Notes under the pieces: generated by a model
The model's input: the letters and a program-made list of their open reading frames with translations, nothing else
Told to the model about the DNA's origin: nothing
The model's database searches: none
Position numbers and translations under genes: made by a program
Shown here: piece by piece, positions 12,885 through 27,173 of the stretch
Layout of the letters: each line of letters opens with the position of its first letter
Position numbering within the stretch: position 1 is the stretch's first letter
Assembly (NCBI RefSeq): GCF_033304595.1
Contig: NZ_CP116341.1
Location: forward strand, 973,001-1,037,000
Direction: 5' to 3'
Origin: Sporosarcina jeotgali
GTDB taxonomy: Bacteria > Bacillota > Bacilli > Bacillales_A > Planococcaceae
DNA length: 64,000 nucleotides

Positions 12885-13131
12885 CATATTGAATGACAGG
12901 CATTGAAAGAGACAGTACTTTCCAAGTAGGCTGTGATTTAGCGAGTCGGGGATAGTGAGAGCCCGATTGCAGGTTGGAAAGGAAGATCACTCTGGAGCCG
13001 GATTGCAGCAGCAATCCCGGAGCACACCCCGTTACGGTGTTCGAGAGGCAGTCGTGATTTCTATACGGCTGCAACTAGGGTGGTATCGCGAGCACAGTCC
13101 TCGTCCCTTTTACAGGGACGGGGATTTTTTG
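12885..13131 (+). ncRNA. T-box leader (tRNA-Ile sensing) upstream of ileS
   Basis: A transcribed leader that lets uncharged tRNA-Ile switch off the terminator. The T-box core AGGGTGGTATCGCG is at 13077-13090. A candidate AUC isoleucine specifier codon sits at 12986-12988 near the 3' side of stem I. The terminator stem CCTCGTCCC/GGGACGGGG (13099-13125) is followed by six T. The region between holds the other stems expected of the class. It lies directly before isoleucyl-tRNA synthetase, which agrees with the specifier. The remaining bases to the ileS start (13132-13215) show nothing beyond the ribosome binding site AAAGGAGG. Confidence 0.95.
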
Positions 13132-21978: not shown

Positions 21979-24375
<2,397 letters not shown>

Positions 24376-24376
<1 letters not shown>

Positions 24377-25005
24377 TGACTAAACAAGAAATCGCAAAAA
24401 TTCTATTGCACGTAGGTGCTGTAACACTTAGCCCGGATGAGCCTTTCACATGGGCATCAGGCATCCAATCACCCATTTATTGTGACAACCGCCTTATCAT
24501 GTCAGACCCAGGCGGCAGAAGAAGGATTGCTGAAGGAATGGCTGCTTCCATTAAAGCGAATTACCCTGAAACAACAGTCATTGCTGGGACAGCTACAGCT
24601 GGTATCCCGCATGCGGCATGGATTGCAGATATTTTAGGATTGCCGATGGTCTATGTCCGTTCAAAAGCAAAAGGTCACGGACGGAGTAAGCAGATCGAAG
24701 GGAAAGTAAAGCCGGAAGACCGGGCTGTCATCGTGGAAGATTTAATTTCTACTGGCGGTAGCAGCTTGACTGCTGCGGATGCATTAACAGAAGCTGGCGT
24801 TCAAGTGGAAGGTGTTGTCTCCATCTTTACATATGGATTGGAAAGTGCTGATCAAGCATTTGAAAAAGCTGGATTATCTTATACCAGCCTCACAGATTTC
24901 AATGCCCTCGCTGAAGTAGCAACGCGTTCCGGAGCAATCCGCGAAGAATCTGTTGCTCCTCTCCTTGACTGGCACCAAAAATTAAAATCTGGCACGTTGC
25001 AATAA
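24376..25005 (+). CDS. pyrE: Orotate phosphoribosyltransferase
   Basis: Transfers the phosphoribosyl group from PRPP to orotate to make OMP (209 aa). Motifs: FTWASGIQSPIYCDNR (residues ~21-36), TATAGIPHAAWIA, VRSKAKGHGRSKQIEG and the PRPP loop AVIVEDLISTGGSSLTAAD (~117-135). Two adjacent ATG codons (24373 and 24376) overlap the pyrF stop; the second is chosen and the difference is one residue. It is the last gene of the pyr operon, followed by a terminator. Confidence 0.97.
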
Positions 25006-25011
25006 TTGACG

Positions 25012-25045
25012 GAAGCTGGCGTTTTACGCTGAGCTTCTTTTTTTA
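25012..25045 (+). terminator. Rho-independent terminator of the pyr operon
   Basis: GAAGCT/AGCTTC with an inner GCG/CGC pairing around a TTTTA loop is followed by seven T. Confidence 0.85.
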
Positions 25046-25112: not shown

Positions 25113-25312
25113 GTTTGTGACGATTCGAAGAGATGGTTGTATCGAAAAGTTGGTTTATGAGCGTTTTTGTCGGTTTATGATCCTATTTTGGAGTTTATGA
25201 GCGCAATATGTGTTTTATGATCACAATTTGTGATTTATGAGCTTTTTCGACGATATATGATCATTATCTCGTGTTTATGAGCGAATTTCGTGATTTATGA
25301 TCACACTTGCCA
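25113..25312. repeat. Tandem 20-bp periodic repeat array with alternating units
   Basis: This fills most of the ~350-base gap between pyrE and rqcH. Eight clear units start at 25153, 25173, 25193, 25213, 25233, 25253, 25273 and 25293, exactly 20 bases apart. Each begins with (G/A/T)TTTATGA (ATATATGA in one). The next three bases alternate strictly between GC-type (GCG, GCG, GCT, GCG) and TC-type (TCC, TCA, TCA, TCA), giving a 40-bp dimeric period. The second half is looser (AATTT and GTG are common). A decayed unit, GTTTGTGA, sits in phase at 25113, and a barely recognisable one at 25133. It is flanked by two converging terminators. No coding potential or known function is apparent. Confidence 0.9.
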
Positions 25313-25318
25313 AACAAC

Positions 25319-25354
25319 ATAAAAACCCAGCAAGGCGGGGAGCCATGCTGGGGT
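25319..25354 (-). terminator. Rho-independent terminator of rqcH
   Basis: Read on the reverse strand, CCCAGCA/TGCTGGG forms a 7-bp stem around a GC-rich loop and is followed by five T. It faces the pyr operon terminator across the repeat array. Confidence 0.88.
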
Positions 25355-25357
25355 AGG

Positions 25358-27049
25358 TTATGCTTTTAACTGCCGTACGACATCTTCATCGGGGGTGACA
25401 AAAATCGTTTTTTGTTCAAAGTAGATGACAAACCCTGGTTTTGACCCATTGGGCTTTTTTACGTGACGGACTTCTGTGAAATCGACTGGCACGGATGCTG
25501 ATCCTCGTGCCTTACTGAAGTAAGCCGCGAGAGTGGCAGCTTCTTGAATCGTTTGTTCGCTCGGCTCCTCATCGTGAATGACTACGTGTGACCCCGGAAT
25601 ATCTTTGGTATGCAGCCAAATATGGTTGCGGGCAGCGAGCTTCGAAGTCAGCCAATCATTTTGTCGGTTATTTTTCCCGACTGAGATTTTTATACCATCT
25701 GTCGACTGATACGATTCGGGCATCGGTTTCTTAGGTTTTACTTTCTTCTTGCCTTTTCGAGCTTTCATGAGACCCAGTTCCGCAAGTTCGTCCCGGATTT
25801 CATCGATATCATCAGTAGATGCCTGCATGACTTGCTGTTTCACCATTTCAAAATACTCGATGTCTTCGCGGGCTTTTTCCAATTGACTAGCAAGTTGAAT
25901 TAAGGCATTCTTCGCTTTTGTATACTTTGAAAAATAACGCTGCGCATTGTCAATCACAGATTTGCGTGGATCCAGTTGAATCGTCACAGTTGTTCCTTGC
26001 TCATAATAGTTATCAACAACGGCTTCTTTTTGCCCTTTTTCAATCGCATAACTGTTTGCTGTGAGAAGTTCACCATAAAGTTGGAACGTATCCAAGCGAC
26101 CTGCGTCATTGCGTTCTTTTTCCAGCTTTTGCACTTTTAACTTCAGTTTGGAAATTTCGTTATCCAGCCAGCGCTCTAGATCAGCTGCTTGCGCTTTCAC
26201 CCGTTCTCGAACTGCACGGGCAAAGTAGACTTTGTCCAGCAATTCCCCGAGGGTCGGATAAACAATCTCGGATCCTTCCGTGAACGTCAGCTCAGCTGCA
26301 GAAAATAATAACTTTCCCTCCTTTTCCACAGTGTTCGGATGAAAAGGACCTTCTGAAAAAATCTGGACGAATGACTGATAGGTCTCATATGCAGACGCTC
26401 CGGCTGAACTGGTTAATCGATACAGCAGTTCCTCCGCATGCACCGGTGAAAATCCTGAAAGCTCTTGAACAACAGCTTTAGGAGTATCAAACGATGGAAG
26501 TAATTGTTCAAACTCTTCTTGAGTAAGTGTAAATGGATTGCGTTTATCTTGCGGCGGTGCTGGGATGTAAGGTTGGCCTGGCATAATGGTACGATAGCTG
26601 TTCACACTTGGCGGCAAGTGCTTCATGCTGTCGATGATCATATCTCGTTCCGGATCGATCAGTAAAAAGTTACTGTGACGCCCCATGATTTCAAATATGA
26701 TTGCACGTTCCATATCATCGCCAATTTCGTTTTTTGAACGTATCGTAAACTTTAAGATTCGGTCTGTTCCCATTTGTTCAACTGCTGTAATTGTGCCGCC
26801 TTCTAAGTGTTTTCGAAGTGTCATGCAGAACATTGGAGGTTCTTTTGGGTTCTGAATCGTTTCTTCTGTAAATTGCACGCGCGCATAGGAAGGATGAACC
26901 GAAAAAAGTAACTTTCGGTTTTGACCGCCTGCTCGGATAATGAATACGGTTTCTTGTGCGTTTGGTTGGTGAATCTTTGTGATTCTCCCATTTTCTATCG
27001 TTTGTAGTTCGCGTTTCATCGCGGTTGTGAACAACCCGTCAAATGCCAT
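25358..27049 (-). CDS. rqcH: Rqc2/RqcH ribosome quality control protein (NFACT family)
   Basis: Binds stalled 50S subunits carrying peptidyl-tRNA and recruits tRNA-Ala to add C-terminal alanine tails, marking the chain for degradation. The 563-aa protein starts MAFDGLFTTAMKRELQ and has the NFACT-N domain (IMGRHSNFLLID ~118), a helix-hairpin and coiled-coil middle (about residues 280-430), and the NFACT-R domain with NHIWLHTKDIPGSHVVI (~480). GAGGAA lies 7 bases before the ATG; a longer frame upstream is not needed. It is formerly annotated as a fibronectin-binding protein (YloA). It is on the opposite strand to its neighbours, unlike in B. subtilis. Confidence 0.95.
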   Translation of the reverse strand: MAFDGLFTTAMKRELQTIENGRITKIHQPNAQETVFIIRAGGQNRKLLFSVHPSYARVQFTEETIQNPKEPPMFCMTLRKHLEGGTITAVEQMGTDRILKFTIRSKNEIGDDMERAIIFEIMGRHSNFLLIDPERDMIIDSMKHLPPSVNSYRTIMPGQPYIPAPPQDKRNPFTLTQEEFEQLLPSFDTPKAVVQELSGFSPVHAEELLYRLTSSAGASAYETYQSFVQIFSEGPFHPNTVEKEGKLLFSAAELTFTEGSEIVYPTLGELLDKVYFARAVRERVKAQAADLERWLDNEISKLKLKVQKLEKERNDAGRLDTFQLYGELLTANSYAIEKGQKEAVVDNYYEQGTTVTIQLDPRKSVIDNAQRYFSKYTKAKNALIQLASQLEKAREDIEYFEMVKQQVMQASTDDIDEIRDELAELGLMKARKGKKKVKPKKPMPESYQSTDGIKISVGKNNRQNDWLTSKLAARNHIWLHTKDIPGSHVVIHDEEPSEQTIQEAATLAAYFSKARGSASVPVDFTEVRHVKKPNGSKPGFVIYFEQKTIFVTPDEDVVRQLKA

Positions 27050-27173
27050 GTGAATTCCTCTTTCTTTTCGTTTCCTCCATTTTAGCACTACGCGCCAAAC
27101 ATATGGTATAATACGAATACAAACTTCGGATCGAACTGGATTAGGGCTGATTTGAATGGAGAGACTACATTAG

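Follow-up and report, generated by a model that had tools for sequence, protein, structure and literature searches.

What kind of element consists of short units repeated at exact 20-bp steps between two convergent genes? The question is raised by an array in the window (the whole stretch of 64,000 nucleotides that was analyzed), which lies between two open reading frames that we take, following the sequence-only reading, to be pyrE (24373-25005, + strand; relatives in 41 of 41 genus genomes) and the convergent rqcH (25358-27088, - strand). The array is made up of eight cores of 9 bp, TTTATGA[GT]C, spanning 151 bp of the + strand (25154-25304), with unit starts at 25154, 25174 and so on up to 25294 and a step of exactly 20 bp throughout. 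The sequence-only reading had described eight TTTATGA units at this spacing; the spacing is exact for all eight, but only seven begin with TTTATGA, the sixth (25254) beginning with TATATGA (core TATATGATC). The GC/TC alternation claimed for the following dinucleotide does hold without exception here, GC-type units 1 (the head, 25154-25173, with a T-run in its spacer), 3 (25194-25213), 5 (25234-25253) and 7 (25274-25293) taking turns with TC-type units 2 (25174-25193), 4 (25214-25233), 6 (25254-25273) and 8 (the tail, 25294-25304, a core), and TGATCA is found, as had been noticed, in three of the latter (units 4, 6 and 8). The array was also said to lie between two converging terminators. On the pyrE side, a probable intrinsic terminator (25010-25045, +; stem 25017-25031) is supported by a terminator scan for which 0.6 such matches would be expected by chance in the stretch, but on the rqcH side the probable terminator, an 11-nt inverted repeat (25326-25352) with an adjacent A run (25317-25352, -), was not reported by the scan.

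The array is neither a product of chance nor alone. The genome contains 154 two-unit pairs, compared with none for a reversed control pattern. A sequence-only model trained on 32 eight-unit arrays gave 134 matches in the window's genome (one contig of 3,203,634 bases, Sporosarcina group) among the 150 of 820 candidates scored, including the pyrE-rqcH array itself, which is one of the 32 training arrays (G000:C1:998154-998303, E 1.5e-27). Reading around the matches revealed 59 arrays, each holding three or more exact cores, and the stretches around four weak matches (near 378, 380, 389 and 936 kb) held no array. The number of units was 5 in two arrays, 7 in one, 8 in 23, 9 in four, 10 in six and 11-30 in 23, which sets a floor at eight units: exactly eight in 23 of the 59, and fewer in three. 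Two of these three (2653306 and 1901975) start at the end of an ISL3-type insertion sequence, and the third (1902312) duplicates much of the sequence of a neighboring array, so that by our reading all three are cut or partial.

ISL3-type ends were observed within or at the edge of three arrays, in the same unit phase (L220, G000:C1:1593113-1594848; L226 together with L244, 2653396-2655131; L328, near 1901975), the transposase family having been checked for the L220 copy. Two ISL3-type copies are flanked by 8-bp duplications (GGGTTTAT and GGATTTAT), and this insertion sequence seems to insert preferentially into the arrays. One array consists of two 10-unit halves interrupted by a full insertion. 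Elsewhere, five consecutive arrays of 8-9 units each, about 317 bp apart, form a higher-order repeat (L326, G000:C1:2837144-2838582).

The pyrE-rqcH array has exactly eight units in each of six species. In their alignment, 5 of 72 core columns were variable compared with 38 of 77 spacer columns (p = 6e-9), the corresponding figures being 74 of 151 for the upstream flank, 35 of 55 for the downstream flank, 71 of 300 for pyrE and 76 of 298 for rqcH. Judging from this comparison, the cores are evidently under selection and the spacers evolve like the flank. Two decayed units had been proposed to continue the phase upstream; we do not count them, because 25114 matches the core at six of nine positions and 25134 at only three, and because this segment changes between species just as the remaining upstream flank does. 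Across 30 pairs of orthologous short arrays, the substitution rate stays at 0-4% at core positions 2-7 and 9, reaches 14% at position 1 and 20% at position 8, and lies at 19-43% over positions 10-20, but these rates are partly biased since the units were found by their core, and the clean estimate of core conservation is that of the pyrE-rqcH locus. Two more species carry an array after pyrE, of 14 units (G022) and 7 units (G008). In six relatives devoid of it, the interval after pyrE measures 48, 66, 99, 131, 192 and 321 bp, and in the other array-less relatives read it exceeds 1 kb, these intervals, up to the next gene of whatever identity, being taken by reading. The sequence-only reading had made a functional role depend on finding such arrays in related genomes and on units that do not diverge freely. 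More arrays are indeed present in the same and in related genomes, with the core held and the spacers drifting between species, which favors a function.

Outside the window's genome the floor of eight is softer. Among 94 further arrays, read from 97 loci (L021-L117) out of at least 120 stretches found, the mode is again eight units (31 arrays), with 24 arrays shorter. Chaining gave three units in L043, four in L114, five in L052, six in L104 and seven in L025, L232, L040 and L148. In genomes with divergent cores (described below), 47 chains of at least five units comprised 19 with seven or eight units, one with six and 27 with more, shorter chains being discarded and arrays near locus ends being marked and left uncounted. 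Arrays were kept at three or more exact cores for the 59-array catalog and the 94-array count, and at five or more units for the placement and divergent-core counts. Where several species carry an orthologous array, each copy counts on its own in the 94-array, alternation, placement and head/tail figures. Arrays near locus ends were dropped from the 94-array, step, alternation and same-index counts, and ten loci from other organisms were included in the 94-array count and excluded from the step, stop-codon, alternation, placement and same-index counts. Two apparently orthologous arrays, L324 (G035) and L289 (G443), have six and eight units, the shorter seeming, by eye, to have about 40 bp (two units) less. 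The L317 array (G017:C7:159000-160200) is interrupted by a run of N, which indicates that draft genomes may give miscounts.

Could the arrays be neutral or selfish tandem repeats, spread and homogenized by slippage and recombination and serving no cellular function? Longer arrays are homogenized, often as 40-bp dimers, the copy number at one place varies among species (8, 9 and 34 units in the L213 group), and the presence across genera is patchy, all of which would fit such an origin. Nevertheless, an eight-unit floor despite mutually diverged spacers is unexpected of neutral slippage. Cores held against drifting spacers and flank, with eight units kept in six species, also speak against it, as does the strong bias of the arrays toward convergent and against divergent places (see below). 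We consider this explanation unlikely. The recent duplication envisaged by the sequence-only reading fits the longer, homogenized arrays but not the eight-unit ones, whose units differ from each other. That eight-unit arrays are copies of one master was rejected, since units of the same index are no more alike (similarity of 0.43) than others (0.42). A decaying mobile repeat, also suggested, is disfavored among the arrays compared: both flanks of 26 of 34 arrays of the window's genome match an array-bearing locus of another genome, in a comparison confined to loci picked for carrying arrays.

The anatomy of the units points to a phased and polar element. We counted 1321 steps of 20 bp, 54 of 21 and 8 of 19; in the genomes with divergent cores there were 482 of 20 bp, 4 of 19, 3 of 22 and 124 of 21 (124 of 613), the latter being commoner there. 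Steps of 20 bp are expected for sites two helical turns apart. A/T-rich positions (2-5 and 12-14) recur ten bp apart within the unit, and the A/T-G/C periodicity at 10 bp has an amplitude of 0.144 inside 32 exact-20 arrays, to which the 20-bp repeat contributes, compared with 0.03 and 0.02 in the flanks. The last unit usually lacks the A/T patch of its second half, which is present in 39 of 117 tail units compared with 875 of 1176 body units (15 of 56 compared with 379 of 586 in the window's genome alone). The head unit is enriched in T-runs, with 38 of 117 compared with 187 of 1176 body units (27 of 56 and 78 of 586 in the window's genome). These two features indicate that the element is polar, with two different ends. 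GC-type units are in excess at the head in the wider set (81 of 117 compared with 672 of 1176 body units), an excess absent from the window's genome alone (26 of 56 compared with 317 of 586), and in genus g29 a GC-type first unit with a T-run is followed by a mostly TC-type body in seven of nine readable loci (the exceptions being L368 and L363). The strict alternation of the pyrE-rqcH array turned out to be only a tendency: in 49 eight-unit arrays, 235 of 343 steps alternate, compared with 178.2 (sd 8.4) after shuffling, and the orthologous array of G022 is entirely GC-type. The array strand is G-rich in the 100 bp upstream of the 49 eight-unit arrays (G 0.31, C 0.17), unlike downstream (G 0.21, C 0.24).

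With ATGA recurring every 20 bp, each ATG frame ends after seven codons at the TGA of the next unit, and the geometry of the units fits a chain of overlapping minigenes exactly. However, frame-breaking 21-bp steps are tolerated, and stops in the spacers, read in frame, occur at the chance level (95 of 1183 units, with 97.2, sd 7.4, expected). This refutes the chain, to which we give practically no credence.

The arrays favor convergent gene pairs and are rare between divergent ones. Of 118 intergenic arrays, 50 lie between convergent genes, 60 between tandem genes and 8 between divergent genes; intergenic regions of 150 bp or more that carry no array split into 16, 79 and 35 (p = 1e-8; genes called by a simple ORF rule). 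An earlier count in the window's genome alone gave 11 convergent, 19 tandem and 3 divergent out of 33, and one array extends more than 45 bp into a called gene. Arrays between tandem genes show no orientation preference, 28 being oriented with the genes and 32 against. An element that works at the transcript level, such as a sponge or a processing signal, might be reached by read-through of the nearby terminators, and folding of the reverse strand gives a slightly negative mean z (-1.16, 40 arrays). The indifference to gene orientation argues against it, as do a forward-strand mean z of -0.21 in the same arrays and the lack of a promoter excess upstream over resampled sequence. There is also no flank-to-flank pairing: the two flanks of one array show better pairing than mismatched flanks in just 24 of 49 arrays, and a stem between them is unsupported. 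At Rfam gathering scores, the sole match in the whole window is a T-box leader (12894-13111, +), and the array matches no RNA family. We regard action at the RNA level as very unlikely. The replication link that had been suggested is unsupported: array orientation relative to replication was split 15 against 28 loci, which is nonsignificant (p = 0.07) and sensitive to terminus placement, the origin having been assumed near 0 and the terminus at 1.6 Mb.

The core itself changes between lineages. Model matches were found in 55 of 68 genus genomes (45 candidates scored per genome), many of them without exact core pairs, and the 13 genomes with no match under the same scoring suggest that the element is either dispensable or drifted beyond the model's reach there. 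Reading the loci revealed other cores at the same 20-21-bp step: TTTATGCGY (G036), TATGATCG (G002 and G441), TATGAGCG (G443, G035, G444 and G245), TAYGAGCGGT (G017) and, also in related genomes, TCTATGATC. Genus g29 has TCTATGATCA in most loci read, G375 has TTTATGCGCG, and two core types each occur in G061, G437 and G063. A core is mostly common to the loci read within one genome and differs between genomes, the loci being drawn nonrandomly from the best model matches (150 candidates scored), with a single locus each for G035 and G444. Cores for the unit counts were chosen by eye; a re-reading without chosen cores was anchored on ATG, ACG or ATA and took the best chain per locus, L307 being read on the other strand.

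Farther afield, at least 19 of 398 Bacilli sampled, in 7 of 145 genera, match at E 1e-6 (7 candidates scored per genome). Five of the seven genera belong to the window's own family and two lie elsewhere, again as a lower bound. Arrays of the same step are also present in Fictibacillus nanhaiensis, Alkalihalobacterium elongatum (eight units), Pontibacillus yanchengensis, Bacillus sp. V3-13 and Peribacillus cavernae, and in the reading that covered g29 and G375, 5 of 23 loci had no clear array on the hit strand (none in L357 and L360, poor ones in L362 and L355, one on the other strand in L374). A core common to the loci of a genome, with spacers that are not, and shifting from one genome to the next, is the pattern expected from a single partner that reads the sequence. 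Gene conversion among the arrays seems less likely, since the spacers differ.

Minigenes, RNA folds, an own promoter and links to TIGR-Tas or RAYT systems (see below) being unsupported, action on double-stranded DNA remains. We give an even chance to the reading that the array is a polar platform on double-stranded DNA for a putative sequence-specific protein, with at least eight phased sites, located at the ends of transcription units. Such a protein would recognize the core, here TTTATGA[GT]C, repeated every 20-21 bp (two helical turns), and its copies would bind head to tail along one face of the helix. Eight sites, or about 151 bp, would be the smallest working platform, presumably because a head-to-tail oligomer or a single wrap of DNA closes near that length. 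At the ends of transcription units, chiefly between convergent genes, such platforms would insulate transcription or manage supercoiling. Among the options raised by the sequence-only reading, a phased protein-binding site is the best supported. More tentatively, and at somewhat under an even chance, we envisage a hitherto undescribed nucleoprotein system that spans the chromosome in Planococcaceae and in some further Bacillales, in which some sixty polar platforms of at least eight sites, located at the ends of transcription units and each with head, body and tail, would serve a fast-evolving DNA-binding protein co-evolving with all its sites, about eight of which would close a ring, wrap or filament acting as a boundary element or topological insulator. 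Against this reading, no binding protein was found: among the 40 scanned of the 60 flanking proteins listed, one LysR-type protein is the sole recognized DNA-binding regulator; nine of the 40 have no family at E 1e-8, and the genes are varied, with no common theme seen.

No dedicated protein would be needed if the arrays were BIME-like sites at which DNA gyrase, or some other housekeeping enzyme, wraps DNA strongly where convergent genes end. It speaks against this that, to our knowledge, gyrase is universal, whereas 379 of the 398 Bacilli have no match at the threshold and scoring given above, so that array presence is a lower bound. In its favor, the minimum array length, about 151 bp, comes close to that of the 130-bp gyrase motif, whose GC content is likewise periodic, and gyrase cleavage sites are over-represented in BIME-2 elements (PMC6379681). 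The alternation of A/T and G/C patches at 10 bp, the enrichment between convergent genes and the lack of an orientation preference would likewise fit. On the other hand, the gyrase motif is degenerate and symmetric, with a period of 10.75 bp (PMC6379681), whereas the array core is base-specific and polar, has a period of 10.0, and changes its dialect from genome to genome within a restricted taxonomic range. We hold a housekeeping site of this kind to be quite unlikely. Returning to the platform for a dedicated protein, a counted minimum of sites combined with helical phasing, held cores and lineage dialects is unusual for bacterial intergenic repeats. The arrays point to a putative DNA-binding protein and open two questions to experiment: what sets the border between convergent bacterial genes, and what makes about eight sites necessary. 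The dialects would permit the study of a protein and dozens of sites shifting specificity jointly.

We found no prior description of the array family in the open-licence literature, and several known systems can be set beside it. A CRISPR array was discarded, since a 9-bp core with 11-bp related spacers differs from long identical repeats with unique spacers. TIGR arrays, which work with Tas proteins, also have two alternating short repeats and spacers of about 10 nt, but the spacers here are related across arrays (A/T at positions 12-14, G at 19) instead of unrelated and guide-like, and a Nop domain was matched in none of the eight array genomes searched, compared with 4 of 14 control genomes. 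A phage or plasmid origin is unsupported: one array (L220:2026-2226) had no BLAST match in plasmids or phages with the low-complexity filter on, and seven viral contigs carry a single core pair each. Iterons and parC-type centromere arrays are head-to-tail direct repeats bound by an oligomerizing protein, a likeness in layout; the arrays described here, however, are chromosomal and number 59, and no rep, par or replication initiator gene was recognized among the 40 of 60 flanking proteins scanned, nine of which have no family.

REP/BIME elements of E. coli and other bacteria are dispersed intergenic repeats as well, found for the most part where neighboring genes converge or run in tandem (PMC3733652), and insertion sequences target them (PMC1525189), so that they resemble the arrays in dispersal, in location at gene 3' ends, in rarity between divergent genes and in apparently attracting insertions. 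They differ in that the core TTTATGA[GT]C is nonpalindromic (TGATCA occurs in only some TC-type units) and is arranged in direct repeats at a 20-bp step with a floor of eight. A RAYT link was also rejected, and the arrays are unlinked to the Y1 transposase of that type: Y1_Tnp is found in 12 of 15 genomes searched, some of them without exact-core arrays, and is absent from the array-rich G010, G020 and G007. The gyrase motif, a long A/T-G/C periodic motif of 130 bp set against an array of 151 bp, is the nearest physical parallel and the placement is that of REP elements, but neither explains a base-specific, polar and dialect-forming core. As a repeat family the arrays are new to us, and in kind the family belongs broadly among dispersed intergenic repeats and direct-repeat protein-binding arrays.
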